25,220 bases of DNA from a virus, in the IMG/VR virus record IMGVR_UViG_3300037882_005382, positions 1 through 25,220 of that record; one strand, 5' to 3'. This document shows, in pieces, positions 2,246 to 23,029 of this stretch (positions are counted from its first letter, which is position 1; each line of letters begins with the position of its first letter). Made by a program: the position numbers and the translations under genes. A model generated the notes under the pieces. It was not told where the DNA came from and made no database searches. It saw only the letters and a list, made by a program, of their open reading frames with translations.

Positions 2246-3574
2246 CTACCAGCCCGCAAAATCCAACATCTCTTCACTCGCAAAATTAATCGAACTCTCC
2301 CCCACGGTCGTAATCCCAGCCCAATCGATCGCCTCATCCCCCGCCGCCATAATTGCCAGGAACAAAGCCCAAGTGCGATCGGCGTGACCATTGGAGTCCC
2401 GATCGGCATCAAAGCGCGGCGTCCCCACAGCGGATACCGATTTTTTCAGCTTATGCAAATCGTCCCGCAGTTCTGGCAGCGGCGGAATCCGAAGGCCCCG
2501 CGTCTCGAATCGGCGCTTTCCTTCCGTCGCCAACGCCAACTTATTCGCCGAGCCAAAAATCACCCCCTCCACCATCGACCCATACTTTTTCTGCGCCCGC
2601 TCCACCACCATCTCGCCCATCCCAGATTGGTCAAAGCAACCCCGTTCAATTCGGTACCGCCCCCATAACCGATCGACGATCGCCTCTTGCTCCTCAAACG
2701 AAATCCGCCGCTCCACCACCAACTCACGCACCCACAAAATATCGCCCACCCGCTCGACGACGATCGCAACCCACAGGTCATTACGCCGAGCAATATCCAC
2801 CCCTAAATAGCAGGGATAGCCCGCATACTCTGACGGCTTCCCAGCCCGCTCATCCTCACAGCTTGCAATCAATTCAAACCCAAGCCAAGCCGAAGCCTCA
2901 TCCAACCATTGCAGCTCAAATTCCTGCGCCCAGGCATCCTCATCCGCCAGAGCCGATCGCAGCTCCACCACATCCCGATCCAACCCCTGCGCCACCGCCT
3001 GATGAATATCGACCTGGTGCTTGGACCAAGTGCCGTCGTTAGACTGCATCAGGTCGTAGAACTTATTCGCTTTTCCATTGGGAGTAGACGTAATCCGCAA
3101 ATCAAACCCACGAGAAACGATCGGGAACATCGCCTTCCAAATCTCCCGACTGTCATGGTGGAACGCAAACTCATCCAAAAAAACATTGGCACTAAACCCG
3201 CGAGCCGTATCAGGATTTGCAGGCAGCGCCGTGATGCGTGACCCATTGGGAAGCTGCGCTTCGAGCGCCTTGTATTTGCCCTCCCACTGATACTCGATCG
3301 TTTCAAACGCCGCCTCATAAATCTTGAGATGACGCTTCACCCCCTCATTCAGAGCCTCATAAGCTTGCCGTTCTCCGCGACTAAGAATGACCCACCGATC
3401 GCGCCCGCCTCTGGACTCCGCAAACAAACAGCGCTGCACAATCTCCAACGTCGTCGTCCAGGTCTTCCCAGTCTGACGCGCGAACATGCCGATTTTGAAC
3501 CGGGACTGATCACGGAGCCAACCCCGCTGGTAGTCATAGAGTTCGATCGCGGGCTTTGATTTTTTAGAGACCAT
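2246..3574 (-). CDS. terL: Terminase large subunit, Mu gp28-like
   Basis: A 442-aa DNA-packaging motor: an N-terminal ATPase that drives DNA into the prohead and a C-terminal RNase H-fold nuclease that cuts it. ATPase motifs are Walker A RQTGKT (33-38), Walker B VFLDEF (131-136) and coupling motif STPNG (163-167). Nuclease acidic residues are Asp260 (LGVDIAR), Asp315 (CFDQSG) and Asp399 (HADRTWA). The length is normal for the family and no lesion is seen. The ATG overlaps the end of the small terminase gene by 11 bp and no strong Shine-Dalgarno is visible, so translation is probably coupled. It is the last gene of a minus-strand operon that ends in a terminator. In Mu this gene is followed directly by the portal; here the portal is 15 kb away on the other strand. 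Confidence 0.95.
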   Translation of the reverse strand: MVSKKSKPAIELYDYQRGWLRDQSRFKIGMFARQTGKTWTTTLEIVQRCLFAESRGGRDRWVILSRGERQAYEALNEGVKRHLKIYEAAFETIEYQWEGKYKALEAQLPNGSRITALPANPDTARGFSANVFLDEFAFHHDSREIWKAMFPIVSRGFDLRITSTPNGKANKFYDLMQSNDGTWSKHQVDIHQAVAQGLDRDVVELRSALADEDAWAQEFELQWLDEASAWLGFELIASCEDERAGKPSEYAGYPCYLGVDIARRNDLWVAIVVERVGDILWVRELVVERRISFEEQEAIVDRLWGRYRIERGCFDQSGMGEMVVERAQKKYGSMVEGVIFGSANKLALATEGKRRFETRGLRIPPLPELRDDLHKLKKSVSAVGTPRFDADRDSNGHADRTWALFLAIMAAGDEAIDWAGITTVGESSINFASEEMLDFAGW

Positions 3575-3995
3575 AGATTGCCGCCGTCACTTCCCTCAGT
3601 CGCTCTGGGTCAAGCGTTCGTGCCTGCCCCACATCTACCAATTCAATCTCAGGTGCCGTCATATCCAACACCTTAAACGCCACCTGAGCCAAGACGTTTG
3701 CGGAGGTGTCAGGGCTAGTCAATAGGGTTTCGATCGCGGCCACCGCTTTAATATTCAGCGTCCGCAATTGCCTAATCGAATCCTCACGAGATTCACTGAT
3801 TCGCTTATCCAACTCCGCCACAAACGCCGGAGATTTTAACCACCGATTTAGGGTCGCGCTCCCAACCCCAAGACGCTCTACCACCACCACCTGTTTATCA
3901 CCCATCGAAAGCATCCCGATCGCCTGCATCTGCAAGGGCTGAAGCCGCTTTTTAGAGTGATTGGTTTTGATTGGTTTTGATTGGTTTTTAGCCAT
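3564..3995 (-). CDS. terS: Terminase small subunit, helix-turn-helix protein
   Basis: A 143-aa probable DNA-recognition subunit that would bind the packaging site and load TerL. After a basic, Lys- and Asn-rich N-terminus comes a helix-turn-helix (about residues 20-53; LQMQAIGMLSMGDKQVVVVE, then LGVGSATLNRWLKSPAFV), a helical middle and a hydrophobic C-terminal segment. I chose the ATG at 3995 because TGAGGG lies 9 bases upstream; another ATG 9 bp earlier leaves no room for that site. The gene overlaps the upstream FHA gene by 8 bp and TerL by 11 bp. A 10-bp tandem repeat (TTGGTTTTGA) makes up codons near the N-terminus. Identification rests on position plus the HTH. Confidence 0.82.
   Translation of the reverse strand: MAKNQSKPIKTNHSKKRLQPLQMQAIGMLSMGDKQVVVVERLGVGSATLNRWLKSPAFVAELDKRISESREDSIRQLRTLNIKAVAAIETLLTSPDTSANVLAQVAFKVLDMTAPEIELVDVGQARTLDPERLREVTAAIYGL
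3961..3990. repeat. 10-bp tandem repeat, three copies, inside the terS start region
   Basis: TTGGTTTTGA, TTGGTTTTGA and TTGGTTTTTA run in tandem. The unit is not a multiple of three, so gain or loss of one unit by slippage would shift the terS reading frame within its first dozen codons, upstream of the HTH. Confidence 0.8.
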
Positions 3996-4818
3996 TATTC
4001 CCATCCCTCAACACCGGAAGGGCCGATCGAAGACTCTCCTCCCCCCGCTCACCCGGACGCATATAAATCAAGCCCGCCACACTTGCCACCATGCCTGCAA
4101 TATTGGCGATTTTCCCGACTTCCTCTTGGGCCTTCGTCGCATTCCACCCGCACACCGAAAGCATGGTGATCGCGAGACCGATCGTCAGATACTTCAGGTG
4201 TTCGTGATGCACCTTCAATCGATCTTCCTGCTGTTGGTCGCGTTCACTGGCCAGCGCAATCGCGGCCCGCACCTCAGTCGAAATCGATCGGAACCCGCGT
4301 TCCATATCCGCCTGTAGATCGCTCTTCAAATCATCGATCGAATCAATGCGTTGATTTATTTCCATCATGGCTTGTTGCTGGAGATTCAGCTCTTGCTGGA
4401 GTTGTTGAAGGTCACGCCGTAGCAATGCGATCGCCTCCAATTCAAATCCTTGAGTTGGAGGTTCTCCTAACTCTAACCGCACCTTGCTAGAAAGCTCCGC
4501 CTTGTAACCATCTCCAAGGAAAATATCAATCTCCATGCCCTCCCCAAAGGTCAGCGGTTCCCGGATTCTTTCCCCACAGAACCAAACACCACTGGCACTG
4601 GGCCTAGACTCCTGACCATCCATCACCAACCACGCATCGCCCGATCGCACCAACGTCGATTGCACCCGCGAACAAGCCTGCACCCCTCGCCCGATTTTGT
4701 AATTCGTCTCAGAAGATCGCCCAAAACTGACAGTAGACTGATTTTTCAAGTCAATCTTGCGAACGGTTAAAAGCGTCCCATCTTTAAATTCTTTGAGTAG
4801 CACATTGTTTTCTAGCAT
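3988..4818 (-). CDS. FHA-domain, coiled-coil, two-TM membrane protein
   Basis: A 276-aa protein. Residues 10-115 match the forkhead-associated fold, which binds phosphothreonine peptides: Gly33-Arg34 (SFGRSS), Ser50-Arg51 (CSRVQST), then AWLVMDG, Ser76-Gly77 in place of the usual NG (SASGVWFCGERI) and a final strand IDIFLGDG. Residues 128-205 are a Gln- and Leu-rich coiled coil. Two hydrophobic stretches follow, about 209-225 and 237-253, with a short charged tail. The ATG at 4818 overlaps the upstream Mor-like gene by 35 bp. It lies between a regulator and the terminase genes, an unusual place for an FHA protein. A membrane-tethered phospho-signal sensor or a spanin/holin-like accessory are possible; neither is shown. 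Confidence 0.72.
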   Translation of the reverse strand: MLENNVLLKEFKDGTLLTVRKIDLKNQSTVSFGRSSETNYKIGRGVQACSRVQSTLVRSGDAWLVMDGQESRPSASGVWFCGERIREPLTFGEGMEIDIFLGDGYKAELSSKVRLELGEPPTQGFELEAIALLRRDLQQLQQELNLQQQAMMEINQRIDSIDDLKSDLQADMERGFRSISTEVRAAIALASERDQQQEDRLKVHHEHLKYLTIGLAITMLSVCGWNATKAQEEVGKIANIAGMVASVAGLIYMRPGERGEESLRSALPVLRDGNNG

Positions 4819-5176
4819 CTAAATCTCGGCTTTTGAACGATCGAAGAATAATAAAGATTTGCCGCTCAGTTAGACCAAATTCAACGGCCGCCTGACGACA
4901 GGAATAGAGCTTTAAAAAATCGAAAATAGCCTTATTCCGATTCCTAATCACCAAAGGACTCGACCGACGACAATGCTTTTTAAAATTAGGAACATCAAAG
5001 GCTCCCCCTCCGTAAAAGCGCTGAAGTTTTTGAGTCGATTCTTCACCAATCAGTGAATACAAGGCCATCAAGCCCTTAGAACTTCTTCGCCCGATCGGAA
5101 TATACAAGCGCGTCCCACCATACTTTTCAACGAGTTTTTCTAGAGATTCATGGTCTAGTAATTGTTCAAGAAACAT
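4784..5176 (-). CDS. mor: Mor-type (Mu middle operon regulator) transcription activator
   Basis: A 130-aa protein of the Mor/C family, which activates middle or late phage promoters as a DNA-bound dimer. Features seen: N-terminal dimerisation segment with YGGTRLYIPIGRRSS (19-33), a Gly-rich strand region (RFYGGGAFDVPN, 53-64), and a C-terminal helix-turn-helix from about 82 to 114 (FLKLYSCRQAAVEFGLTERQ). The length fits Mor and C. No good Shine-Dalgarno precedes the ATG at 5176. It heads the minus-strand operon and faces the head genes across a 152-bp AT-rich gap, so it is well placed to control both directions. The C-terminal tail runs into the FHA gene and seems less conserved. Confidence 0.8.
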   Translation of the reverse strand: MFLEQLLDHESLEKLVEKYGGTRLYIPIGRRSSKGLMALYSLIGEESTQKLQRFYGGGAFDVPNFKKHCRRSSPLVIRNRNKAIFDFLKLYSCRQAAVEFGLTERQIFIILRSFKSRDLDARKQCATQRI

Positions 5177-5328
5177 GGCTTTTGAGAGATTGAATTGGAG
5201 GCTATTCGTCTTGAGAAAATATTAATATTTATTTAAGAATTAAGCTGTAATGATATCCATAAGTTCTTTCAGGCTAGAAACATTCTATAGGTGGGAATAC
5301 CGTTTCATTGCTGACGTATGGCAGTCCT
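5177..5328. promoter_or_regulatory. Divergent promoter region with AT-rich palindrome
   Basis: This is the only gap between the minus-strand regulator/terminase operon and the plus-strand head-tail operon, so it must hold promoters for both unless transcription enters from elsewhere. AAATATTAATATTT (5217-5230) is a perfect 14-bp palindrome and a wider imperfect CTT...AAG dyad surrounds it. TTGAGA at 5211 with TAAGAA 17 bp later is a weak sigma70-like candidate. Mor-type activators bind dyads beside weak promoters, so this palindrome is the best operator candidate. Confidence 0.45.
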
Positions 5329-6270
5329 ATGAGCAAATTAGTAGAAATTTTTCGACAGGGAACGCACATTGATAGTGCAGGTGTTACCCGTACATTTACG
5401 GAAGATACCCTTAAACAAATTCAAGATTCCTACAATCCTGAAAAACATACGGCTCCATTCCTGGTTAATCACGATGAATCAAAGCCCAACCGAGGAATTG
5501 TCGATCGCCTTATAAGGATTGGTTCCTCGCTCTATGCCGCCGCGAAAAATATTGACGCCGATTTCCAAAAGCAGATTAACGATCGGAGACTGCCTGCGCT
5601 ATCAGCCGCACTCTATTCCCCCGAAGACCCTCGCAACCCCAGACCGGGAATGTGGGGGCTTCGGCATGTCGCAGCCGTTCAGATTCCAGCGGTTAAGGGA
5701 ATGAAGCAACCCGAATTCAAAGAATGCGACAAGCTTTTGACGATCGAGTTTGCAGAGCTAGCCGTAGAGGAGGAAGAACCTGAAGAGGAAGAACCTGAAA
5801 CTAAACCTGAAACTAAACCTGAAACAACGGAGCCACCAATGACTGAGGAAGAACTCAAGGCCCTTAGAAAACTATTAGACGAGCGATCGACAGAACTGGA
5901 TAAAAAATCCGCCGTCTTGGACGCAGCAGAGTTTCAAACCTTTGCTGAAGCCTTGCTAAAGGAAGGCCGTGTCTTTGATTCCAAACTCGCAGCGGCGATC
6001 GCGGTCACGCTCCCCAGTGAAGCGGAAAGCACGATCGCATTCGGAGAAAAAGCAGAACCGATTCAAACGCGATCGGCTTTCAAAAAGTTCCTAGAAGCCT
6101 TGCCTAAGACGGTCGAATTTGGGGAGGTATCAGCGGGCGCGGCTCCGGCGAAGTATGACGCGAATGCGATCGCCACAGCCGCCCGTGACTACAAATCTGA
6201 GCAAGAAGCCAAGGGCAATTCCATTAGCTTCTCTGAAGCGGTGGCCCATGTAGAAAAAGGAGTGAAATAA
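5329..6270 (+). CDS. Mu gpI-like head maturation protease with in-frame scaffold
   Basis: A 313-aa two-part protein. Residues 1-145 are a Mu I-type prohead protease: EIFRQGTHIDSAGVTRTF, FLVNHDESKPNRGIVDRL with candidate catalytic His48, and LPALSAALYSPED with candidate Ser92 or Ser97. A flexible acidic repeat linker follows (EEEPEEEEPETKPETKPETT, 147-166). Residues 171-313 are helical and scaffold-like. The family processes the prohead and removes scaffold. The ATG at 5329 is chosen because the family motif begins right after it; an upstream in-frame TTG at 5308 adds seven unconserved residues. The ribosome site is weak. First gene of the plus-strand morphogenesis operon. Confidence 0.88.
   Translation: MSKLVEIFRQGTHIDSAGVTRTFTEDTLKQIQDSYNPEKHTAPFLVNHDESKPNRGIVDRLIRIGSSLYAAAKNIDADFQKQINDRRLPALSAALYSPEDPRNPRPGMWGLRHVAAVQIPAVKGMKQPEFKECDKLLTIEFAELAVEEEEPEEEEPETKPETKPETTEPPMTEEELKALRKLLDERSTELDKKSAVLDAAEFQTFAEALLKEGRVFDSKLAAAIAVTLPSEAESTIAFGEKAEPIQTRSAFKKFLEALPKTVEFGEVSAGAAPAKYDANAIATAARDYKSEQEAKGNSISFSEAVAHVEKGVK
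5828..5841 (+). promoter_or_regulatory. Internal Shine-Dalgarno and ATG for the nested scaffold
   Basis: CGGAG (5828-5832) stands six bases before an in-frame ATG (5839-5841), a better initiation site than that of the full-length gene. It sits exactly at the linker between protease and scaffold, as in Mu, where gpZ starts inside gene I. Confidence 0.7.
5839..6270 (+). CDS. Nested scaffold protein, Mu gpZ-like, in frame within the protease gene
   Basis: Internal translation from the ATG at 5839 would give a 143-aa protein identical to the C-terminal half of the protease ORF. It begins MTEEELKALRKLLDERSTEL and is largely helical and charged, as expected of a removable scaffold that nucleates the prohead and is then digested. 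It shares the frame and stop of the longer gene. Support comes from the strong internal ribosome site and the known Mu I/Z arrangement; expression itself cannot be seen from sequence. Confidence 0.65.
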   Translation: MTEEELKALRKLLDERSTELDKKSAVLDAAEFQTFAEALLKEGRVFDSKLAAAIAVTLPSEAESTIAFGEKAEPIQTRSAFKKFLEALPKTVEFGEVSAGAAPAKYDANAIATAARDYKSEQEAKGNSISFSEAVAHVEKGVK

Positions 6271-6272
6271 CT

Positions 6273-6683
6273 ATGACTCAAGCGACACAAATCATTGCCT
6301 CAATTCAGGCCGATAGCGAGGGCATTCCCCCTTATCGAATTGTCATGACGAACCCGTTTAACGGTTCCATTGGCTACAGCACAGGCAACAATCTAGTTTC
6401 TGGATTTCCCGTTGCTTATATCGGCGTAACCGGAGAATTGGGCATTGACCCAGATGCTGTTGGCGACTGTACGGTTGCGGGAATCGCGTATGTGCAAAGC
6501 GGGGAAGGTCAGCTCTTGCCGGGAAGTCCGATCGCCTGCGATCAAGTGGGCCGAGCTGTGCCCGTCATCGGGCCTGGAGAAAGAATTGTTGGCTTTTGTC
6601 TGGAGAACCAGCCAACAACCCTAGGCCAAATTGTCAAAGTCATTGTTTCTCCAGGTTCTTCTTATTCGGGGCTTAGTTCGTAA
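6273..6683 (+). CDS. Capsid cement/decoration protein, DUF2190-like
   Basis: A 136-aa beta-rich, Gly-rich protein between the scaffold and the major capsid gene. Segments such as GDCTVAGIAYVQSGEGQLLP and IGPGERIVGFCLENQPTTLG fit the small capsid cement proteins (DUF2190 type) that brace expanded HK97-fold shells from outside. It starts at ATG 6273, just after the protease stop, with GGAG eight or so bases upstream. Assignment is by position and general sequence character, without a diagnostic motif. Confidence 0.62.
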   Translation: MTQATQIIASIQADSEGIPPYRIVMTNPFNGSIGYSTGNNLVSGFPVAYIGVTGELGIDPDAVGDCTVAGIAYVQSGEGQLLPGSPIACDQVGRAVPVIGPGERIVGFCLENQPTTLGQIVKVIVSPGSSYSGLSS

Positions 6684-6685
6684 TC

Positions 6686-7645
6686 ATGGCAAAACAACCG
6701 TTCGTCCTATCGCCACAGCTCACCGCCGTCGCGATCGCCTACCAAAACAAAAACCTGATCGCAGATTCAATCCTGCCTCCCACGCCCGTCAATGCCGCTG
6801 AATTCAAATGGACATTGTATCCACCTGAAGAAGCCTTCACGGTCCCAGACACGCGGGTATCCCGTCGCGGTAGTGTCAATCAAATCAGCTTCACCGCCAC
6901 CGAGCAAACCAGCTCAGTGGATGCCTACGGCTTAGAAGACCCCATCCCCTACTCAGACATCATGAAGGCGGAAGACGGGCGACGGGCGGGGCTGAATGCC
7001 TACGATCCACAGGCTCATTCCGTCGAGTATTTGATCAAATTGATGGACCTCGATCGGGAAATCCGAGTCGCGAGCGAAGTCAACAACCTCGCCGCCTACG
7101 CGACCAATCGCCGGGTAACGCTCTCGGGAACATCCCAGTACAACGACTATGCCAACAGCAATCCGTTATCGGACTTGCTAACCCGCCTAGACGTGCCACT
7201 AGTGCGCCCTAACGTCCTATGGATGGGCCAAGACGGATGGCGAATCCTGCGGCAGCATCCGCGAATCGTCGAAGCCGTCAAAATGACCGGAGCGGGTCTC
7301 AATGCCCAAGGCACGATCGCCCGTCAAGCGCTCGCTGAACTTCTCGAAATCGAAGAAGTGTTGGTCGGCGAAGGCTGGGTAAATACGGCTAGGCGCGGCG
7401 TCACGGCCACCATGTCCCGTGTCTGGGGCAAGAACATCGGCATGATTTACCGCGACAAATTGGCAGGGCCTCAAATGGGTCTGACCTTTGGCTTTACGGC
7501 TCTGTGGAAAGGCAAATTTGCAGGGACGATCGAAGACCCGAATATCGGTCTTGAAGGCGGCGTAATCAACCGCGTCGGGATGAACTGCAAAGAGATCATC
7601 TGTGCCCCTGATGCAGGTTACTTCATTCAAAACGCATTCGCTTAA
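6686..7645 (+). CDS. Major capsid protein
   Basis: A 319-aa protein that should build the HK97-fold shell. The position after protease/scaffold and cement genes is diagnostic. Sequence marks are the N-terminal LIADSILPPTPVNAAEFKW, the middle ALNAYDP-like region around residues 105-125 with DREIRVASEV, the LVRPNVLWMGQDGWRILRQH stretch typical of capsid A-domains, and a C-terminal core with IGMIYRD and GFTALW. It has few Cys and no signal peptide. The size is usual for Mu-like siphophages. It starts two bases after the cement gene stop and is expected to be the most highly expressed gene of the operon. Confidence 0.87.
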   Translation: MAKQPFVLSPQLTAVAIAYQNKNLIADSILPPTPVNAAEFKWTLYPPEEAFTVPDTRVSRRGSVNQISFTATEQTSSVDAYGLEDPIPYSDIMKAEDGRRAGLNAYDPQAHSVEYLIKLMDLDREIRVASEVNNLAAYATNRRVTLSGTSQYNDYANSNPLSDLLTRLDVPLVRPNVLWMGQDGWRILRQHPRIVEAVKMTGAGLNAQGTIARQALAELLEIEEVLVGEGWVNTARRGVTATMSRVWGKNIGMIYRDKLAGPQMGLTFGFTALWKGKFAGTIEDPNIGLEGGVINRVGMNCKEIICAPDAGYFIQNAFA

Positions 7646-7660
7646 TAGGAGAAATGAATC

Positions 7661-7873
7661 ATGACTGATGCCGCTAAGACACCCGCTAAAGAAGCGACTC
7701 CCGTAGCAACAAAAGTGGAACTCAAAAGTTACAAATGTCTGAACCCGATCGAACACGACGGCAAATCTTACAATACGGGCGCGACAATCAAGCTCGACAA
7801 CGCCACCGCGATCAGTCTGCTACGCCTTGGGGCGATCGTAGACCCAGAGGCTATGGACAAGGCTGAGGACTAA
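7661..7873 (+). CDS. Small DUF7210-like protein
   Basis: A 70-aa protein with a disordered Thr/Ala/Lys-rich N-terminus (1-18) and a compact domain from 20 to 65: LNPIEHDGKSYNTGATIKLD followed by ATAISLLRLGAIVDP. This short beta-beta-helix layout (hydrophobic strand, HDGKxY turn, Gly-x-Ile, LLxLGA) is common just after phage major capsid genes. AGGAGAAA lies about nine bases before the ATG. Its role is unknown; a minor head-completion or capsid-associated protein is likely by position. Confidence 0.72.
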   Translation: MTDAAKTPAKEATPVATKVELKSYKCLNPIEHDGKSYNTGATIKLDNATAISLLRLGAIVDPEAMDKAED

Positions 7874-7876
7874 TCC

Positions 7877-8308
7877 ATGTATGTCACTCAAGCTGATTTG
7901 ATTCGGTTATTTGGTTTGTCTGAGATTGAGAGTTTGTCTCAGCTCGACTATCCCGGTAACCCCGCGATCGACACAGTGCGAGTGGATGCAGCCTGCGAAT
8001 ACGCAACCCAGGAAATTGATTGCTATTTAGCGTTGCGTTATGCGTTGCCGATCGCGTCGGTGCCATTGGTCCTCACCAACAAAGCTGCCGATATTGCCCG
8101 CTATCAATTGGAGCATAACGACCCTCGCGAAGACGTGCGGAAGCGCTACGAAGACGCGATCGTCTGGCTCAAGTTGGTGGCGTCGGGAAAGATTGGTTTA
8201 GGGCTAGATAGCGGCGGGGCTGAGATTGAATCTGAGACCCCGACCTATTCAGTCGCGGCGCTGCACCCGATCGCGGTATTCACGGACCTTTCACTATCGG
8301 GGTACTGA
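7877..8308 (+). CDS. Mu gp36-like head completion protein (DUF1320)
   Basis: A 143-aa helical protein. MYVTQADLIRLFGLSEIESL at the start, then AACEYATQEIDCYLALRYAL and KAADIARYQLEHND, match the gp36/DUF1320 family, a head-tail connector/adaptor class. The ATG lies four bases after the stop of the preceding gene, and its stop overlaps the next ATG by one base (TGATG), so translation is coupled. Length is typical for the family. Confidence 0.82.
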   Translation: MYVTQADLIRLFGLSEIESLSQLDYPGNPAIDTVRVDAACEYATQEIDCYLALRYALPIASVPLVLTNKAADIARYQLEHNDPREDVRKRYEDAIVWLKLVASGKIGLGLDSGGAEIESETPTYSVAALHPIAVFTDLSLSGY

Positions 8309-8745
8309 TGATTGAGCAGGTGGAACAACTCCTAATCGATCGGCTAAAGGCAACCCCCAACCTTGGCAATCTCGTTCATGTCCTGGGCTTCCCTGGCAAG
8401 CCGAACGACGACGCGGCGAGGATTCGGGGAAGCGCTGCCATCCTCGTTAAGTTTGGGCGATTAAAGCTCGAAACCGAGGGCGGTAACGGGTATCACACGC
8501 TGCAATATGGGTCCCTAGATTTTGAGTTTCGGCTCTTGGTCAAGGATTTACGATCGCACGTCGGAGCCTACGACCTAATCGAAATCATCGTCGATCGAAT
8601 CTCTCGCTATCAGCCGCCCAATCTCCCACCATGGAGCTTTGGGGTGTCTGGTTTCCAGGTGAGTGAGGCGGTGTTAATCGATCGGAGTGAGGCGATTTGG
8701 GACTGGGGAATGACGGCAAAAATTGATTTGACTTATCAGAAATAA
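8308..8745 (+). CDS. Mu gp37-like tail terminator/neck protein
   Basis: A 145-aa protein of the gp37 (DUF1834) type by order and sequence pattern: an N-terminal helix (EQVEQLLIDRLKATP), a central beta region (LDFEFRLLVKDLRSHVGAYD) and LIEIIVDRIS, then a Trp-rich C-terminal strand region. The family is thought to form the collar or tail terminator ring between neck and tail tube. It starts on the last base of the preceding stop. Assignment is by synteny plus weak motif resemblance. Confidence 0.7.
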   Translation: MIEQVEQLLIDRLKATPNLGNLVHVLGFPGKPNDDAARIRGSAAILVKFGRLKLETEGGNGYHTLQYGSLDFEFRLLVKDLRSHVGAYDLIEIIVDRISRYQPPNLPPWSFGVSGFQVSEAVLIDRSEAIWDWGMTAKIDLTYQK

Positions 8746-8754
8746 CGAGGAATT

Positions 8755-9567
8755 ATGAGCGGAATTGCGATCGGTTTTGGGGATGCAGGCGTACGATCGA
8801 CTTCGATCGCGGGCGGTCCCGGTAATCAAAAATTATTCAGATATCCTATCTTCAGCTTCGACTTAGACCAAGAGTCCAAGAATGAAGAAGTCTTGGCCTA
8901 TAACGCGGGGATTCATCAAACAGAAGACATTCTAGACGGAGCCACCACCACCACCCTCAAGCTGTCCACAGAGGTGGTCAACTGGGGCATGATGGGTCTC
9001 GCTCAAAACCAAATCGAGCGGACCCTGACCAACTTCAGCCTGCCCCGACTCAAGCGGGCAACAGTGCCTTTGACGGCTCCCTACGAAATCGTAGACACAG
9101 ACCTGACCGCAGCGAATACGGCTAAGACTTTGGTGAGCGTCGATCGCTACGGCACTTGGGGTCAGACCGGAACCCTCACGCTCTCGGCCACGGCACCCGA
9201 TGCCCGATCGGTGCAGATTGTCACAGCCAATACAAAGCTCGTCTTCAACGCGGCTCAAGCGGGCGCACCTGTCACCTACATCACAGACCAGATTGTTCCG
9301 GCTGCAAACGTCTACGGCGGGCCTGGACAGTCAGCGCAGATTGGTGAAATGGAGTTCTGTGGAACCATTTACGACAACTCCAACGACCCCAGCAATGGTC
9401 AATACATTTGGATTCCCCGCATCAAACGGTTCACCGCACCAAAACTAAACTTTTCAGGCGGTAAAGCGAAACTTGAAACCGAGTTCCGCTGTCTATCGGT
9501 CCCCGGCTGGACCAATCCGTTCATGATGGTTGACCTTCACTCGATCGTTCCCCAATTAATCATCTAA
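8755..9567 (+). CDS. Major tail tube protein, probable
   Basis: A 270-aa beta-rich, Gly/Ala/Thr-rich protein between the neck protein and the tail chaperone, where the tube gene lies in siphophages. No tail sheath gene of about 400-500 aa precedes it, unlike Mu, so the tail is probably long and non-contractile. C-terminal segment GKAKLETEFRCLSVPGWTNP has the alternating pattern of tube strands. An Ig-like or decorated insertion may occupy about 115-180. AACGAGGAATT before ATG 8755 provides a ribosome site. The stop overlaps the next ATG by one base. Confidence 0.65.
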   Translation: MSGIAIGFGDAGVRSTSIAGGPGNQKLFRYPIFSFDLDQESKNEEVLAYNAGIHQTEDILDGATTTTLKLSTEVVNWGMMGLAQNQIERTLTNFSLPRLKRATVPLTAPYEIVDTDLTAANTAKTLVSVDRYGTWGQTGTLTLSATAPDARSVQIVTANTKLVFNAAQAGAPVTYITDQIVPAANVYGGPGQSAQIGEMEFCGTIYDNSNDPSNGQYIWIPRIKRFTAPKLNFSGGKAKLETEFRCLSVPGWTNPFMMVDLHSIVPQLII

Positions 9568-10115
9568 TGAAGTGGATTGAACTAGACCTAGACACCTACA
9601 CATTCGAGGGCGTAGACGGGGAAATTCATACCTTTCCCGGCTGCTCCCTTGTCGGTTTTTTTGAGTTTGAAAAACGACTGATTGATCTGCAAAGTTTGTT
9701 ATCGGACGCGGCGGAAGTGATGCCTGTGCAATCGCTTTACCAATCAGATAAGCGATTTAGATGGACGATCGATCGGTGCCTCAAACTGAATGGCATTAAC
9801 CCCGATTGGTGCAATTGGCAGATTGTGGAGCAAATGCTTTTTGTCCCTGGGTTGCTCCGTGAGGTGAACCAACCCAAGGGCAATTCAGGGGGTGAAGGGA
9901 AGGCTCCCGATCTGGCCGAATTGATTGCGGGAATTGCCCATGCGACGGGTTCAATTACGGAGGCGATCGACCTGGCAAAGACGCAGCCGATTAATGCGTT
10001 GGTCGATATTATCGAAGCCTATACTCAGGCTCAATTGCCGCATGATGAACAGGATAAAAAGGGCTTTGATGAGTGGATGGAAAACGCGAGGAATGAAGCC
10101 TTTGGGGTGAGTTAA
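9567..10115 (+). CDS. Probable tail assembly chaperone
   Basis: A 182-aa acidic helical protein immediately before the tape measure gene, where tail assembly chaperones are encoded. The N-terminus (TYTFEGVDGEIHTFPGCSLV) is beta-like; the rest is helical with DLAELIAGIAHATGSITEAI and a charged tail. Such chaperones bind the tape measure and recruit tube subunits. Many phages make a second, frameshifted form; I saw no obvious slippery heptamer near the 3' end and no overlapping ORF. TAATG overlaps link it to both neighbours. Confidence 0.6.
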   Translation: MKWIELDLDTYTFEGVDGEIHTFPGCSLVGFFEFEKRLIDLQSLLSDAAEVMPVQSLYQSDKRFRWTIDRCLKLNGINPDWCNWQIVEQMLFVPGLLREVNQPKGNSGGEGKAPDLAELIAGIAHATGSITEAIDLAKTQPINALVDIIEAYTQAQLPHDEQDKKGFDEWMENARNEAFGVS

Positions 10116-13100
10116 TGGCAGGTCAGCAAATTACTTTAGGGCTGCTAATTTCCGCGACGGGTGGACAGCGAACCGTTGCGGAATTGTTGGCGTTGCGGGC
10201 CGCTGCTAGACGGATCGCTGATGAAGCGCCGGGGATTGCTCAATTGGCAAATGCTTTTGGTATTACTGGAAATGCCGCAAGAAGGCTGATGACTGATATT
10301 GGAAAAACGCCAGAAGAGATTTTAGAAATTGCGGAATCATTAAAGGCAATGCGATCGGCTGGAGCGTCCAGTGCCGAACAAATTTTAGGTTTATCGGCGA
10401 GATTTGGCCTCACAGCAGATCAAGCAAGAAGACTACAAGCAAGCATAAGAGGGACTTTTGACAATGAAAATACTAGAGTTTCTCAGTTTGGCGATGGCTT
10501 GGGGGCGGTGGCATTTAAATTTAACAATATTATTACCGCAATCCAATCTCTCGCCGCCGCTGCAAAACCAGCCTACGACCTGCTTATTGGAAGTAACGAA
10601 AAATTAAATGCTCAGCTACTAAGCAGCCAAACAAATCTTGCAAGCTCCACCCGAATTTCCCAGGGTGGTCAAGACATTACCGACCCGATCGCAAAAATCC
10701 AAGCAACGCAACCTGCACTGAAAGCAGCACTGAAGCAGGTTGAAGAAGACACCCGATCGCTGGTCGGTGTGACCAGCTCCCAAGTCAATGAGCTGTTCCA
10801 AATCACGCTGACCAATGCCGCATCACTCAATAATCAATCCAAACAATTCCCGGACCCGATCGCTGCTGCAACGTCCCTAACTAAAGGCTGGGCGGCATCA
10901 CTAAAAGTGATTGGGATTCCGCTGGACCAAGCGCGACAGGAAATCAATTCGATCGTCAAAGGGCAGGTGGATCAGAATTCCCTCTTGGCTAAAAACCTTA
11001 ACATCAGTAATGAACAGGTTAATAAATGGAAAGGACAAGGCATCCTGGTTGATGAGTTGAATAAAAGACTTGAGGTCTTTGTCGCCGGGAACAAGATTGC
11101 ATCCAATAGCATTGAGGGTATTGGCTCCAATATTCAAGAATTGTTTGAAGTCTTTGGTCGCAATGCAGGCGCGCCATTTTTGCAGCCTACGATCGATGCT
11201 CTGCAAGCGGTGTTTGAATACTTGGATGCGAACAAAGCTGCGATCAATCAGTTCCTGTCTGAGATTGCCACGGTGCTACTGTCCACAGGTCAAAAACTTG
11301 GCACAGCCCTAGAACCCTTTGGCCGAACGTTGCTCAGTATTGGAGAGCAAGCGGGACCGATTTTGCTCAATGCCTTTGAAGGGTTGTCGTCAGTGTTGGC
11401 TGGTCTGGTTACGGCCCTGGCCCCGATCGCCAACTTCATTGCCCAAATCATTGAACAGATTGCCCTGTTTGCCAACACAGACATCGGCGGCATTGCAGTG
11501 CAGGCGGTGGTGGTTACGGCGGCCTTCGTTCAACTGGGGACGATCGTCGCCGGATTCGCCGCAGCCACGATGCCAGCGGCCTTAGTCGCGGTAACAGGTT
11601 TGAGCGGTGCTTTTGCCACATTGTCTACAGGAGTAGTGGCACTCGCAACAGGTGGGATTCCCGGATTGATTGCGGCGTTCCCTGGATTAATTGCGGGGCT
11701 TGGTGCGGTCTCGACTGCGGCATTACCTGTCGCTGCGGCATTGGCACCTTTAGCTGGGGCGATCGCACTCACCTTCATCGTCAAAGGAACTGAAGACCTC
11801 AAAAAATCTCAAGAGGAACTCGACCTGATGCGCAACTCAACCGAACAGTTGTCGGATGAGTCAATTAAATATGCGTCGAAATTGCGAAACCTCGCCCAAG
11901 CCCAAAAGGAAAACGGTTCTCTTACCGCAGAGCAGACCAAAGAACAGCGGCTTTACTCCGACCTTGCCAAACAAACCATCAAAGCCAATGAGGACCAAAT
12001 TGCTGCACTCAAAGCCCTAACTCCAGCCAGTAAGGAACAAATTTCTCAACAGCAAATCCAAATCGCTGAACTTGAGCGGATGAACAAGACGCTCAGCAGC
12101 GCGTCGGGTGGCATTAAAATTCAGGGTAAAGAGCTGGAGGTTTTGGGCAGTTCCTATGAGCAGCTTGCTAAGAAAGTAAATAATTCTAATAACGCAATTA
12201 ACAACGCTCAAACCAATGAGGAAGCCAGTAAAGCCGCTAATGAATTAATTAAGACAATCGAATCCCAACAGGAACTTGCTGCAAAATCTGGAAAAATTAC
12301 AACAGATGCCGCTGTGGAGCAATTGAGGGCGATCGAGCAAAATACTAAACTTGAAGTCGATGTAAAAGAGGCCGCATCCGAAGCGATTGTCAAAATCCGT
12401 AAAGGCGAAATTAGCAAAGTCAAGGACCTTTTAGATCAAGGAAACCTGACCGAAGTTGCGGCGATCGGACGGCTTCAAGAGCTGAGGGCAAAGGCTGAAT
12501 CTCCTGAAATAGCAAAAGCCGCCTCTAATCAAATCATTGCCATTCGTAAGTCTCAGGTGGATGCGGAAGTCGCCGTCATTCAAGCGGGTCTTGCAGAAAT
12601 TGAAGCCGCCAAAGCGAAGGGCGAAATTAACGAGATTGAAGCAGAGCAACAAACAACGAAACTAAAGCAAGAGGAAATCAAAAAACGGATTGACCAGGCT
12701 CGTGAGGAAGCGAACCTCGCCACCGGAGCCGATCGCGAGAAAGCCCTTGCCAATGTGAAAAAATTGAATGCGGAATTAGAGAAAGCCGCTGCTGAATCGT
12801 CGGCACGTATTCTGGCCATCAAAATCAAAGCGATCGAAGAAGAGAATGCCAAAGCCCTCGCCCTCGTCAAATTATCCGAGCAAGAGCGTAAAAACGAGAT
12901 TCAGCGAAGCCTCAACGACCAATCCACCACCCAAGAAGAAGCTCGAAAAGAACAGCTTGATGCTCAAAGAGAAAGTTTAGAAAAAGAAGTTGAAATCGCC
13001 AAAAACAATCAGCAACGCCTTGCAGAACTTGAAAGCCAAATCACCAACCCCAAAGCCCGCGAGGATTTTGAAAGACGTAAACTGGAGGCTGCTAACAAGA

Positions 13101-14413
13101 CCGCTGGGGCAATTTCTAAACTCCTAGACAATGAAGCCGCACAAATCGAACTCCAGCGACAGAAAGTCATTCGCGCCATTGAAAAAGAACAGGATGCACG
13201 ATCGAAGGCGATCGACCTGCAAATTGCTCAGTCCAACAAAATCGCTGCGGTTCGGAATGCCAATGCAACGACAGCGGAGCTGGCATCAGGGCGGGAAATT
13301 GCTGCGATCGATGCCGCGAACCGCGCGTTGCAAACCCAGGGCAAAATCCTAGAAGCTCGAAGCCGACTGGAAAAAGCCCGCTTAGATGCAGCATTGTTTC
13401 TAGCTGAGAAGTCTGGCGACCCCGATGCTGTCGCCGCCGTCAAAGCAGCTCAATTTGCCGCAGAACAAACGGCGGCCCAAACAGCCCTTGCCCAGCAAAT
13501 TAAGGCCGAAGACATGGCCAATCGTCGCGCAGTGATTGAAGCCAAAATCAATGAACTCAAAGCGAAACAAGCCGTCCTCACTGCACAGCAAGCCGTAGCC
13601 GAAGCCAATCTCACCGCCGCCAAAGCCAAGGGCGAAGCGGATGCAGCATTGGCCAAAGCGGACACCCTTGCACCCGGTGAGGCCAAGGACAAGGCCATCA
13701 ATGATGCCAAGCAACAGCAAGCGCTAGCGGCTGAACAGGGCGCAGCGCAGAAGGCCAATGCTGGGGCAGGGCTAGAGGTGGCGAAGCAGGGCGCGCAGCT
13801 CGCCGGGGAAGCCGTCAAGGAAGCCACCCAAAATGCGGCGGCTTCTAAAGAATCTCAGGCATTGCAGCAACAGGCCCTGAATCTCGAACAGCAGACCGCA
13901 AAGGCCCGCTTTGAATCTGAGCAGTCGATCGCTCGTCAGAATGCCTTGCTGTTGCCCCAGCAAGCCACTCAGAACACGATCGCCAACGATGCTGAACGAA
14001 CCAACGCCGCAAGGAATGGCAGTGGAGGACAGGCCACTGCACTCCCAGGACGAAGAGACGGCGGGTCCGTCACAGCGAATACGGCCTATCTGGTGGGTGA
14101 GCGCGAGCCGGAAATCTTTATCCCGAATGTATCAGGCACCATCCTCAACCAAGCCCAAATCACGCGCAACCTTAGCGCACTTCAAGCCGCACAGACGATC
14201 GGTGGCATGGGTACCCCCACGATCGCACTGTCCCAAAACTCGACCGTGAGCATGGGCCAGAACGCGATCGTTCAAGAGTTGCAGGCATTGCGGAAATTGG
14301 TGGGCGATCGTCAACCGATTTCACAAATGAACGCAACCTTTGAAGCGCCTGACTCGGTGAGCTTTGATAAATTTGCACGGTTACAGCGATCGTTATTGAG
14401 GAATAAACTTTGA
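10115..14413 (+). CDS. Tape measure protein
   Basis: A 1432-aa protein, by far the largest here. It is helical and Ala/Glu/Gln/Lys-rich, with long coiled coils (about 580-1300), including a repeated unit near 730-830. A hydrophobic block spans about 457-558 (GGIPGLIAAFPGLIAGLGAV within it), as in tape measures that help DNA cross the membrane. The C-terminus has the typical RRDGGSVTANTAYLVGERE and EIFIPN (about 1316-1337). Tape measures set tail length and leave the tail tip at injection. Using the rough rule of 1.5 angstrom per residue the tail would be around 200 nm, an inference. No peptidase or lysozyme domain was seen. The stop overlaps the next gene's TTG start. Confidence 0.95.
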   Translation: MAGQQITLGLLISATGGQRTVAELLALRAAARRIADEAPGIAQLANAFGITGNAARRLMTDIGKTPEEILEIAESLKAMRSAGASSAEQILGLSARFGLTADQARRLQASIRGTFDNENTRVSQFGDGLGAVAFKFNNIITAIQSLAAAAKPAYDLLIGSNEKLNAQLLSSQTNLASSTRISQGGQDITDPIAKIQATQPALKAALKQVEEDTRSLVGVTSSQVNELFQITLTNAASLNNQSKQFPDPIAAATSLTKGWAASLKVIGIPLDQARQEINSIVKGQVDQNSLLAKNLNISNEQVNKWKGQGILVDELNKRLEVFVAGNKIASNSIEGIGSNIQELFEVFGRNAGAPFLQPTIDALQAVFEYLDANKAAINQFLSEIATVLLSTGQKLGTALEPFGRTLLSIGEQAGPILLNAFEGLSSVLAGLVTALAPIANFIAQIIEQIALFANTDIGGIAVQAVVVTAAFVQLGTIVAGFAAATMPAALVAVTGLSGAFATLSTGVVALATGGIPGLIAAFPGLIAGLGAVSTAALPVAAALAPLAGAIALTFIVKGTEDLKKSQEELDLMRNSTEQLSDESIKYASKLRNLAQAQKENGSLTAEQTKEQRLYSDLAKQTIKANEDQIAALKALTPASKEQISQQQIQIAELERMNKTLSSASGGIKIQGKELEVLGSSYEQLAKKVNNSNNAINNAQTNEEASKAANELIKTIESQQELAAKSGKITTDAAVEQLRAIEQNTKLEVDVKEAASEAIVKIRKGEISKVKDLLDQGNLTEVAAIGRLQELRAKAESPEIAKAASNQIIAIRKSQVDAEVAVIQAGLAEIEAAKAKGEINEIEAEQQTTKLKQEEIKKRIDQAREEANLATGADREKALANVKKLNAELEKAAAESSARILAIKIKAIEEENAKALALVKLSEQERKNEIQRSLNDQSTTQEEARKEQLDAQRESLEKEVEIAKNNQQRLAELESQITNPKAREDFERRKLEAANKTAGAISKLLDNEAAQIELQRQKVIRAIEKEQDARSKAIDLQIAQSNKIAAVRNANATTAELASGREIAAIDAANRALQTQGKILEARSRLEKARLDAALFLAEKSGDPDAVAAVKAAQFAAEQTAAQTALAQQIKAEDMANRRAVIEAKINELKAKQAVLTAQQAVAEANLTAAKAKGEADAALAKADTLAPGEAKDKAINDAKQQQALAAEQGAAQKANAGAGLEVAKQGAQLAGEAVKEATQNAAASKESQALQQQALNLEQQTAKARFESEQSIARQNALLLPQQATQNTIANDAERTNAARNGSGGQATALPGRRDGGSVTANTAYLVGEREPEIFIPNVSGTILNQAQITRNLSALQAAQTIGGMGTPTIALSQNSTVSMGQNAIVQELQALRKLVGDRQPISQMNATFEAPDSVSFDKFARLQRSLLRNKL
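14398..14412 (+). promoter_or_regulatory. Shine-Dalgarno supporting a TTG start
   Basis: GAGGA (14398-14402) stands seven bases before TTG at 14410, which overlaps the tape measure stop (TTTGA). No in-frame ATG lies near, so this site decides the start of the following gene. Confidence 0.6.
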
Positions 14414-14847
14414 GCTATATTTCCTGGCTGGGTACGAGCCTAATCAATCCCTACCCGATCGAACACAAACATATTATTCTCGCCCATCCCCTAGTGCCAG
14501 ATGCTTTGATTTTGGCCCAATTTCAAAGCGAACCCTACAACCGATCGCTCGTGGGGTTTCCAGCGTCAGATGGGCGGTCTAGGACGGGCGGGATTCGGGT
14601 CAAGGGCGATCGATATGCCCCTCAACCTGAATGGGATTTTAATCTCAGTTGCAAAACACCGCAGCTGTATCTATTTGAGCAGTTGCTGTATACCCAATCA
14701 CTGTCTGTTATCCCAATTACCTTCACTGACAACTTTGCGGGCACTGGAGCCGCGACGGTGTTTGTCGATGTGGATGGTCGCTACTCGACTCCGGCGACAA
14801 CGATCGACCTTTGGAAGTTGCAATTTAAATTAAGTAAAGAGGTGTAG
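14410..14847 (+). CDS. Distal tail protein, unidentified
   Basis: A 145-aa protein starting at TTG 14410, overlapping the tape measure stop. It is beta-rich with aromatic residues (EPYNRSLVGFPASDGRSRTG, PQLYLFEQLLYTQSLSV), as in small distal tail or tail-tip adaptors. No specific family recognised. Position immediately after the tape measure matches the distal tail protein slot of siphophages, which caps the tube and anchors the hub. Function is therefore inferred from order only. Confidence 0.6.
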   Translation: MSYISWLGTSLINPYPIEHKHIILAHPLVPDALILAQFQSEPYNRSLVGFPASDGRSRTGGIRVKGDRYAPQPEWDFNLSCKTPQLYLFEQLLYTQSLSVIPITFTDNFAGTGAATVFVDVDGRYSTPATTIDLWKLQFKLSKEV

Positions 14848-14849
14848 TT

Positions 14850-15137
14850 ATGAGCGATCCATTTGGACCGAGAACCAAGATTATTAACACCACCCGCGTG
14901 ACTCAACAGCAGGCTCAAGCGAAAGCGATCGGCGATCGCCACTCCTGTTGCGCTGGGCAATTGGGAGCCTATTCAGACCGTGATGCTTTGACGGGCGATC
15001 GGTTGTTCATCATGCCCGACGGCGGCCAGATTCGACAGAACTGGATTAGCAATTCTACGCCCGCTGCACTTCCGCCCTTGACCATTCCCAGTGGGACGAT
15101 CGGCCTACCCGGATACTCTAGCCAAAAACCCCGATGA
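14850..15137 (+). CDS. Small tail-region protein of unknown function
   Basis: A 95-aa protein starting at ATG 14850, two bases after the previous stop, with AAAGAGG about ten bases upstream. It is polar and Pro/Gly-rich, with a Cys-Cys pair (SCCAGQLG) and a proline-rich end (AALPPLTIPSGTIGLPGYSS). It overlaps the next gene by an ATGA tetranucleotide. No family is recognised; by position it is a minor tail component or assembly factor. Confidence 0.6.
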   Translation: MSDPFGPRTKIINTTRVTQQQAQAKAIGDRHSCCAGQLGAYSDRDALTGDRLFIMPDGGQIRQNWISNSTPAALPPLTIPSGTIGLPGYSSQKPR

Positions 15138-16930
15138 GATTAAACTATCGAATTCCTGAATATGAATTCAAAATTGGGGCGTTTGATGCGTCCGCTTTTT
15201 TGAATAGTTTTAGTTTGAATTGCAGCCCATTGGAAATCAATGCGCCCGCGCTGTGGAGTGGAGATTTTGAATTGGATTACAACCGGATTGCCATGCGATC
15301 GGGCCTCACGGAGAATGACTTTGACCCGCTACATACACCTGCCAGATGGAGACCTGGACAAGCTGTGGTGCAAATTAAAATCAACACCTACCCACTGCCA
15401 CCACTGCGCATTGAGAACTATGTCTACGATGCCAAAACGCGAACCGGACGCGGACGATTGGTGCAGTTGCTCGCGCTAATTGGGGGCGATCGGCCTGCTG
15501 CTGAGCCGGATGTAATCATTCCCGGTGATGGGCTTCCGCTCAATCGAGCGATCGAAGAGTTGCTCAAATCGGCCTACGCTCTGGCCAATCTCACCCCGAC
15601 ATTAGCGATCTCAAACACGGCAATCACAGGCGTAATCCACGCTCCCCTCACCACCCGTGATCCGATCGCTGATGCCCAAAAATTAGCGGGTGTGAATTGG
15701 CAATGGTTGACCGTCACGCCTACCGAATCGACGACGGTTTTTAGTTGCAATCCAAGCGATCATGGGGTGTTGTTTAGCCGATCGATCGGCCAAGTTGAAT
15801 GGGAACCGGACCTGGACGCAATCCATTTCGCCGCGCCCAAAGTCATCGTCACAGGGAGCCGTCAAATTTTGGATGATGTGCCCGCATGTCCCAATGACCC
15901 GAACCCAGCGGCGGATAGTAAGGGCAGACCTAAGCGCGTCACTACTGAGCAATTTGAACCTTTTGGAAAAGTGTTCCCCCAATCGGGGACCAGTACAAAC
16001 CCAGTAATTTCCATGAGGAAAACGATCCAATATGCTTATAACAAAGCTGATACAGGAATTAGTACGATCGGATGGTCCCTCCCCTTTGACGTAGGCAGTG
16101 ATTTGAATACGGCAACTTCGCTCAATACAAAAGACTTCGACGCAAACACGCCGATTAAAACGCTCACGGTAATTGAAGAACCCTTTGGGAAAGTGTTTCC
16201 AAAATCGGGGACTAGCGCCAATCTTGTCGTTAGTAAGGCGATTGTTGAAACGCCATTTGTCCGGGCTGAATATATCCCTTTTGGCGTCATTTTTCCGTCG
16301 TCGGGCACCTCTTTAAATTTATATGCTGCTCCAAGGGAAGTTTTGACCAATCAACGTGTCGCTCAAAAGCCTGACCATGGGGGGGAAATTGACCCTCTTA
16401 CAGGCAAACCGAGATGCTTTGAAAAGCCTCCAGAACTAGAAGACGCGCAGCCCGTCCCCCAAAAGCCGCTTAAAACCGAGGTGATTAAAGGCGAGGCGAT
16501 CGTCACCACTCCAAACTGGACCCCGCTCATTCCTCGTCCCCTAATTGAGGAGGTGGGGTTTATTCCAACGCCGGGACATGCGACGAGTCTAGCCCAGCAG
16601 ATTGCTTTGAGAGAGCAGCGCAGACGTAGCGCTGTCCAGGTCGGTATGCCCATCCCAACAGAGTGGCTTCAGGCTGGCTGTCCTGTGGCTTTTAGGTTGC
16701 TGTGTCATGATGGTGAATTTTGGGGTGAGGGTCCGATCGTGGCCTTCTCTGAGGGGTTTGCAGAGTTCTCATTCAGCGGTGGCCGCATTGGGACATTGGC
16801 GACTGTCATTGCTGAGCCTGCACCTTATCCAGTTTTTGAGTATGGTCAGGCGTCAATATCGGTGCCGCCGAATATTGTCAGTCCGGTTGGCGCTCCGGTT
16901 AATATTCCGATCGTTGTGGGAGGTGTGTGA
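15134..16930 (+). CDS. Large tail protein, probable hub/tip, with three internal repeats
   Basis: A 598-aa protein following the distal tail genes. Residues 1-130 form a beta-rich domain (EFKIGAFDASAFLNSFSLNC, GDFELDYNRIAM, LRIENYVYDAKTRTGRGRL) that resembles tail hub N-termini; 130-250 look like a second hub domain (LNRAIEELLKSAYALANLTP). Three copies of PFGxxFPxSGTSxN start at residues 276, 350 and 382. The C-terminus (about 490-598) has a helical stretch (LAQQIALREQRRRSAVQVGM) and a hydrophobic tail. The ATG overlaps the previous stop. Likely the structural hub that bears fibres; whether it also contacts the host is unknown. Confidence 0.6.
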   Translation: MRLNYRIPEYEFKIGAFDASAFLNSFSLNCSPLEINAPALWSGDFELDYNRIAMRSGLTENDFDPLHTPARWRPGQAVVQIKINTYPLPPLRIENYVYDAKTRTGRGRLVQLLALIGGDRPAAEPDVIIPGDGLPLNRAIEELLKSAYALANLTPTLAISNTAITGVIHAPLTTRDPIADAQKLAGVNWQWLTVTPTESTTVFSCNPSDHGVLFSRSIGQVEWEPDLDAIHFAAPKVIVTGSRQILDDVPACPNDPNPAADSKGRPKRVTTEQFEPFGKVFPQSGTSTNPVISMRKTIQYAYNKADTGISTIGWSLPFDVGSDLNTATSLNTKDFDANTPIKTLTVIEEPFGKVFPKSGTSANLVVSKAIVETPFVRAEYIPFGVIFPSSGTSLNLYAAPREVLTNQRVAQKPDHGGEIDPLTGKPRCFEKPPELEDAQPVPQKPLKTEVIKGEAIVTTPNWTPLIPRPLIEEVGFIPTPGHATSLAQQIALREQRRRSAVQVGMPIPTEWLQAGCPVAFRLLCHDGEFWGEGPIVAFSEGFAEFSFSGGRIGTLATVIAEPAPYPVFEYGQASISVPPNIVSPVGAPVNIPIVVGGV

Positions 16931-17376
16931 TGGGTTGGGTTTACACCATGAGTCCGATCGTCCCTGGGTTGACAATCATTGCCGATCCGGTTGACAGTCG
17001 AATCGCTGAATTAGTGGGCGTTCCGGTGGGTTCATTTAGTGGACCGATTACGATCGCGGCGACCGATGGAACGCTTGCATTAACCAGGGTGGTGATGTTG
17101 GAGAGTGCTGTTCCGGTGGTGACGAGTATTGCGTCTTTGGAATTTGATGTTGCGTTGCGGCCTACGATCGAATTTCGATTTCAGGAAGCTGACCTTGATT
17201 TGATTCGATTGAATCTACTCTTTGAATTTAAAGAGCAGATTCCTATCAAAATGAATGTGACGCCAAAGGTTAGATTTGAATTCACCCCCATTCAACCGAT
17301 CGGGCCAGTCAATTCAAATTTTGAACCTAGTATTGAGTTCTTTTTTACTGAAACCATAATCAACAACGGAAGCTGA
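16930..17376 (+). CDS. Tail-associated protein, unidentified
   Basis: A 148-aa beta-rich protein. I take ATG 16930, overlapping the previous TGA, because GGAGG (16919-16923) stands six bases ahead; a GTG one codon earlier is less well spaced. Alternating patterns such as IEFRFQEADLDLIRLNLLFE and MNVTPKVRFEFTPIQPIG suggest beta strands, and VPVGSFSGPITIAATDG a Greek-key-like turn. No family recognised. Part of the tail operon, probably a tip or fibre-base component. Confidence 0.6.
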   Translation: MGWVYTMSPIVPGLTIIADPVDSRIAELVGVPVGSFSGPITIAATDGTLALTRVVMLESAVPVVTSIASLEFDVALRPTIEFRFQEADLDLIRLNLLFEFKEQIPIKMNVTPKVRFEFTPIQPIGPVNSNFEPSIEFFFTETIINNGS

Positions 17377-17379
17377 ACT

Positions 17380-18099
17380 ATGACGATTACTGGACAAGCT
17401 AGCCCTACCCTACTTCAAGACATTTTGGATAATGGCATTCGCTCAAATAGCATTACCGGACATTTGATTTTGATTGAACCGGGGCTGCGGACGATCGCGG
17501 TGGAGAGTGTGAGTGCGGCAAATAATACCGTGACAATGGATGGGGGAATCGATCATTTTCCTGTTGGCTCAAAAGTCAGAGTTAGCGCAGGTTCAGGCGG
17601 GATTTTGCCCTCGCCTTTGGTTGCGACGCAGGATTATTTTGTGATTCTTGGCAACAGTGATGGAGAGATTGGATTGTGCTTGACGTTGGCGGATGCGATC
17701 GCCTCAGATAATTACAACTCGTATTCCGTGGACATCACAGACGGTGGAGCGCTTCCACTCAATATTTTGGAGCAGCCGTTAGATGCAAAGTCACCGCTCG
17801 CACAAATTGTTCGCCATGAAATTAAGCCGAGCGGCGTCCTCGGCTACGAACGAAAACCTATTGCATTTTCATCAGGTCAAATCGGGCCATCATCGGCAAC
17901 CAAACCTCCAATCGTCGTGATGTGGACGATCGGATCGACTGCCCTGAATTACTCAGCCTGGGCCATCCTTTGGGACGGGATTTCTATCCCTGGTGATTCG
18001 GGTGGGAGTGGCATGGTTTACGCCTCTGATGGGGTAACGCGGACGATCGCGGCCAATGATACGGGCGGGGTGACGGTGAATGTTTCGCTATTGAATTGA
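17380..18099 (+). CDS. Tail tip/fibre-like protein, unidentified
   Basis: A 239-aa beta-rich, Gly/Ser/Thr-rich protein: MTITGQASPTLLQDILDNGI helix at the start, then IAVESVSAANNTVTMDGGID, FPVGSKVRVSAGSGGILPSP and a C-terminal domain with GWAI-like strands (SAWAILWDGISIPGDSGGSG). The mixed profile fits a tail-tip or short fibre subunit. The stop lies in an ATTGA tandem repeat (18091-18110) that also separates it from the next gene. No specific family recognised. Confidence 0.6.
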   Translation: MTITGQASPTLLQDILDNGIRSNSITGHLILIEPGLRTIAVESVSAANNTVTMDGGIDHFPVGSKVRVSAGSGGILPSPLVATQDYFVILGNSDGEIGLCLTLADAIASDNYNSYSVDITDGGALPLNILEQPLDAKSPLAQIVRHEIKPSGVLGYERKPIAFSSGQIGPSSATKPPIVVMWTIGSTALNYSAWAILWDGISIPGDSGGSGMVYASDGVTRTIAANDTGGVTVNVSLLN

Positions 18100-18112
18100 A
18101 TTGAATTGAGCC

Positions 18113-18742: not shown

Positions 18743-18795
18743 ATAGAACGCGACGGTTTCGCTAGGTTGAGTGGGCCTGATTTTGGTGCTTAACT

Positions 18796-20952: not shown

Positions 20953-21131
20953 CGTTTGAACAATTTATGACGATTTTTCATGAGGAAGCGGACAAGGCTG
21001 ATGACGCTGGGCTGACCGAGGATGAGACTCTAGCCGCCTTTGACTCAAGGATAAAAGCGGAAGGCATCACTGAGGAAGAAAGCACCAAGTACCATGGAAT
21101 GATGCTCGGTTCGATCGGGTACCTTATTTAA
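20949..21131 (+). CDS. Small acidic protein, candidate immunity or partner of the portal cargo domain
   Basis: A 60-aa protein with strong negative charge (MTFEQFMTIFHEEADKADDA, LTEDETLAAFDSRIKAEGIT). The ATG overlaps the portal stop (ATGA) and AAGGAAG lies seven bases upstream, so it is translationally coupled to the portal. Predicted helical, without TM or signal. Size, acidity and position right after a variable C-terminal domain resemble immunity or antitoxin genes; this is inference. It could instead be a small assembly factor. Confidence 0.65.
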   Translation: MTFEQFMTIFHEEADKADDAGLTEDETLAAFDSRIKAEGITEEESTKYHGMMLGSIGYLI

Positions 21132-21133
21132 AA

Positions 21134-22969: not shown

Positions 22970-22970
22970 A

Positions 22971-23017: not shown

Positions 23018-23029
23018 ATTGGAGAAATC

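Follow-up and report, generated by a model that had tools for sequence, protein, structure and literature searches.

FHA proteins are a main cellular way of reading threonine phosphorylation, and the locus described here raises the question of what such a protein would do for a virus that encodes it between a transcription activator and the terminase genes. The DNA is an IMG/VR virus record of 25,220 bases (IMGVR_UViG_3300037882_005382), which was analyzed over its whole length and is called the window below. The original prediction had read in it an FHA domain followed by a coiled coil and two transmembrane (TM) segments, with a late role at the membrane such as sensing host kinase signals for lysis or packaging.

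The gene, its operon and its relatives

The ORF at 3988-4818 is present. It is read from the minus strand (4818→3988), which the original prediction had left unstated. It is one clean ORF of 276 amino acids, and the corresponding frame of the plus strand over 3988-4818 contains several stops. Two homologues were found in IMG/VR, with 91% and 75% identity. Among the three viruses, the overall dN/dS of the gene is 0.14-0.19, which indicates purifying selection, and therefore the ORF is a real gene. The features of the locus are the following:

3988..4818, minus strand: FHA-coiled coil-hairpin gene, 276 aa (ORF; purifying selection)
4522..4731, minus strand: FHA domain, residues 30-99, divergent (Pfam PF00498; HHalign)
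4204..4446, minus strand: long helix, probable coiled coil, residues about 125-205 (AlphaFold)
4135..4191, minus strand: hydrophobic helix 1, uncharged residues 210-228, probable TM (Kyte-Doolittle; hairpin dN/dS)
4060..4110, minus strand: hydrophobic helix 2, uncharged residues 237-253, Gly/Ala-rich, possible TM (Kyte-Doolittle; hairpin dN/dS)
4784..5176, minus strand: Mor-family transcription activator (Pfam Mor, 25.4 bits; PHROG late transcriptional activator, 2.8e-14)
3564..4004, minus strand: terminase small subunit, TerS (PHROG terminase small subunit families)
2246..3574, minus strand: terminase large subunit, TerL (Pfam Terminase_6N/6C)

The mor gene is located upstream of the FHA gene, with an overlap of 35 bp at the mor end, and the small terminase gene is located downstream, with an overlap of 17 bp at its start, being followed by the large terminase gene. 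Overlapping genes in the order Mor-FHA-TerS-TerL are found in all three viruses. The placement in a Mor-terminase operon is borne out in both homologues, no ordinary host homologue was found, and the possibility of an ordinary host gene is ruled out because the gene lies inside a phage operon in every case. Beyond the same two relatives, IMG/VR gave no further matches to the whole protein, the three-sequence alignment or the hairpin alone; also, a scan of bacterial genomes with narrow patterns of the family found none, and tblastn against phage and plasmid collections gave no credible homologue.

The head and tail genes are oppositely directed, from about 5308. The Mu-like layout is rearranged in the window, with the terminase operon (2246-5176) diverging from the capsid genes (5308-23467) and with the portal and MuF genes located after the tail genes. 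The MuF-like head protein (21603-22826) carries a C-terminal stretch resembling a GNAT acetyltransferase (Acetyltransf_10, E 2e-5). Moreover, an inverted repeat formed by AAAATTTGCGGGGCATTT, 15 or so variable bases and AAATGCCCCGCAAATTTT is present at 2155-2205, 22968-23018 and 24714-24764 of the window. The copies of this repeat (three in the window, five in the related genome G001 and one in G002) are near gene-block borders, and the repeat could be a terminator or a regulator site.

G001 (IMGVR_UViG_3300046778_000227) has 36,362 bases and is classed as linear in IMG/VR; it is probably complete because there is a 299-base overlap between its two ends, in which 3 positions do not match. A MuA-type transposase was not recognised in this genome, which instead combines Mu-like head genes with a gene for a tyrosine integrase and one for a primase-like protein that carries DUF3854 and has relatives among plasmid proteins; G001 is possibly a phage-plasmid. 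The window encodes an apparently full-length tyrosine integrase (1-1059), and the G001 copy (28772-29212) has an internal deletion. Downstream of the integrase gene of the window, long inverted repeats are observed at 1366-1716 (69 nt, 87%; 45 nt, 82%).

The host had been proposed to be a filamentous cyanobacterium. The hexamer CGATCG occurs 166 times in the window against 6.6 expected, a 25-fold over-representation of a kind that is typical of many cyanobacteria, and the plasmid relatives of the DUF3854-bearing protein are rich in cyanobacteria. These sequence traits point to a cyanobacterium as the probable host of this small virus group, but they give no support to the filamentous part of the proposal.

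The FHA domain, the long helix and the C-terminal hairpin

The Pfam FHA profile (PF00498, cut-off 20.7 bits) gives 19.7 bits (E 0.0012) with the whole protein of the window, just below the cut-off, and 22.4 bits with its N-terminal domain by itself. For the homologues, the values are 27.8 bits as a domain and 24.9 as a whole protein (L002), and 27.1 and 25.0 bits, respectively (L003), so that the isolated domains are above the cut-off in three of three members. Also, when the three phage sequences were compared by HHalign with six cellular FHA domains, the probability was 83% (score 35.8), whereas the maximum among 30 column-shuffled versions used as control is 18% (score 24.3), most of them being at 1% or less. 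A sequence search of the PDB gave no match. FHA domains fold as an 11-strand beta sandwich; the AlphaFold model of this part is all-beta and of low confidence (pLDDT 44, from three sequences only), and with it Foldseek places the FHA domains of Ki67, EssC and CEP170 at ranks 1, 3 and 6, with nonsignificant E values (0.16 for the top FHA). Taken together, the profile comparisons support well the assignment of the N-terminal domain as a divergent FHA domain.

The hallmarks GR, SR and SG named in the original prediction are indeed present, at residues 33-34, 50-51 and 76-77, and none of the three known members departs from the motifs G33-R34, S50-R51 and S76-G77. In all three, Gln53 replaces the usual His after SR, and Ser76, preceded by a few inserted residues, replaces the Asn of the NG motif. 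This Asn contacts the peptide in known FHA domains; it is, like the His after SR, a common site residue that is absent from some of them. Because both positions are substituted, the binding of phosphothreonine by the phage domain is doubtful. Moreover, no match to a kinase (PF00069) was obtained in the three phage records; a phage-encoded kinase partner was thus rejected, and any phosphate would be made by the host. Then, for the proposed reading of host-kinase signals, the invariant GR and SR are favorable, but the two substitutions and the missing kinase are not.

After the FHA domain, AlphaFold predicts a single long helix (residues 125-222, with pLDDT mostly in the range 78-92 until about residue 210), in agreement with the predicted coiled coil, and a second helix at residues 227-251. 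The two TM segments, as a probable C-terminal membrane hairpin, are plausible but borderline. The uncharged runs at 210-228 (19 residues) and 237-253 (17 residues) reach Kyte-Doolittle means of at most 1.22 and 1.49, below the usual TM threshold of 1.6, and their octanol sums are -4.6 and about 0. Weak hydrophobicity would still be compatible with a membrane role because two DUF2730 proteins, from the equivalent slot of related phages, reach peaks of only 1.28 and 1.34. On the other hand, the hairpin has a dN/dS of only 0.01-0.03 between the three viruses, while the FHA core is at about 0.17-0.19, the long helix at 0.14-0.22 and the tail at 0.45-0.9; the hairpin is therefore the most constrained part of the protein. 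This constraint lends support to membrane insertion without proving it.

A lysis slot and the proposed role

The slot of the FHA gene was compared in phages with related large terminases, being defined as the interval that precedes the small terminase gene and, where Mor is annotated, follows it. In the window and the two relatives, the FHA gene alone fills the Mor-TerS interval. The same interval contains a lysozyme and an Rz1-like gene in Leptolyngbya phage Lsp-JY19, a lysozyme and a holin in Microcystis phage Mwe-Yong1, an amidase in Pasteurella phage AFS-2018a, a transglycosylase in Alteromonadaceae phage B23, and a holin, an endolysin and Rz in Pseudomonas phage B3; DUF2730 is found by Pfam in three of the five scanned slot proteins close to the small terminase. 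The slot of the FHA gene is thus equivalent to the lysis cassette of related Mu-like phages. DUF2730 corresponds to Mu gp25, a membrane-tethered releasin required for the release of the Mu endolysin (PMC9239132). Also, when the proteins of G001 were scanned with Pfam and PHROGs, no endolysin, holin or spanin appeared among the matches listed (for PHROGs, the best 25 of 40 families). This is a strong but not absolute indication that G001 has no recognised lysis gene, an endolysin of an unrecognised family being conceivable among its ORFans.

Based on the slot and the hairpin constraint, the best single guess is a late, membrane-tethered FHA adaptor that occupies the lysis or releasin slot and helps lysis or another takeover of the envelope, to which we assign a probability of roughly 37%. 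The protein would be produced together with the terminase genes, presumably late, and its C-terminal hairpin would tether it to the inner membrane, with the coiled coil and the FHA-family domain held on the cytoplasmic side. There, the coiled coil would drive oligomerisation, the FHA domain would bind a partner of host or phage origin, which might be a membrane protein in phosphorylated form, and the hairpin would act on or in the cytoplasmic membrane to help lysis or envelope takeover. The late lysis role that had been suggested is in this way favored by the slot and by the lack of a recognised lysis gene in G001. However, the protein has no sequence match to DUF2730 or holin families, its topology is the reverse of that of gp25 and its hydrophobicity is borderline; moreover, any cargo could come to occupy such a slot, which weakens the reading. 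A bolder version, in which these phages would have lost endolysin, holin and spanin from the Mu-like slot and a single membrane-anchored FHA protein would instead couple Ser/Thr phosphorylation in the host envelope (for example, of wall-synthesis proteins) to lysis, is a long shot.

Alternatives and comparison with known systems

The FHA domain could, alternatively, capture phosphothreonine made by host kinases at the membrane and alter host signalling, defence or wall synthesis with no role in lysis. The invariant GR and SR would fit such a decoy, as would the kinase and FHA families of the control cyanobacterium Synechococcus elongatus and the precedent of KKP, a known kinase module of prophages in which one kinase bears an FHA domain (PMC11341870). 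Nonetheless, the site has Ser for Asn and Gln for His, the strongest constraint falls on the hairpin and not on the FHA domain, and the three records lack a phage kinase, all of which makes this explanation unlikely. A second one, also unlikely, is that the domain is structural, a phosphate-blind protein-protein module within a membrane scaffold that would place, for example, terminase or proheads at the membrane. Such a plain protein-protein role has been proposed for other FHA-fold domains without the site residues, and the degenerate site, the overlap with the small terminase gene and the low-confidence structural match to the EssC FHA would agree with it; however, GR and SR are retained at 75% protein identity, related phages do without such a protein adjoining TerS, and we know of no membrane packaging in Mu-like phages. 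Finally, a prophage cargo protein for superinfection exclusion or lysogenic conversion, in the operon by chance, is less probable still: exclusion factors are often membrane proteins of this type and the integrase of the window is apparently full length, but the co-directional overlap with Mor and TerS, kept in all three viruses, suggests expression with the terminase genes.

If the lysis role of the membrane-tethered adaptor is true, the exit of the phage would be tied to host kinase signalling, and cyanobacterial viruses, about whose lysis little is known, would gain a new lysis component. If it is not, these phages without a recognisable lysis enzyme would still show a Mu-like lysis slot taken over by a different membrane protein. 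The original prediction knew of no phage system described in this form; in agreement, the open-access papers searched gave no description of such a phage protein, nor of an FHA protein in a phage structural or late operon.

Among known systems, the FHA protein shares with Mu gp25 and DUF2730 (PF10805) the Mor-TerS slot and, if the hairpin inserts, a membrane-tethered cytoplasmic organization with a coiled-coil-like helix, some DUF2730 members having similarly weak hydrophobic segments. However, DUF2730 proteins have about 100-120 aa, an N-terminal TM segment and no FHA, whereas in the phage FHA protein the FHA domain is N-terminal and the hairpin C-terminal, a reversed topology. Membership in DUF2730 was rejected, PF10805 being absent from the Pfam lists up to E 1, and a match of the FHA protein to a holin family was not found. 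The prophage kinase-kinase-phosphatase module KKP (PMC11341870) resembles it in having a prophage-encoded FHA domain; in that case, the domain belongs to the kinase PfkB of a defence or lysogeny module composed of two Ser/Thr kinases and a phosphatase, whereas the gene described here belongs to a packaging operon in records with no PF00069 match. With cellular FHA proteins, including the membrane-linked EssC, the family is shared by profile, the structural match to the EssC FHA being of low confidence; in contrast to them, the phage protein has a divergent site, a phage operon, a coiled coil and a C-terminal hairpin, and no secretion ATPase. In sum, a domain that is already known stands here in a new architecture and at a new genomic location.
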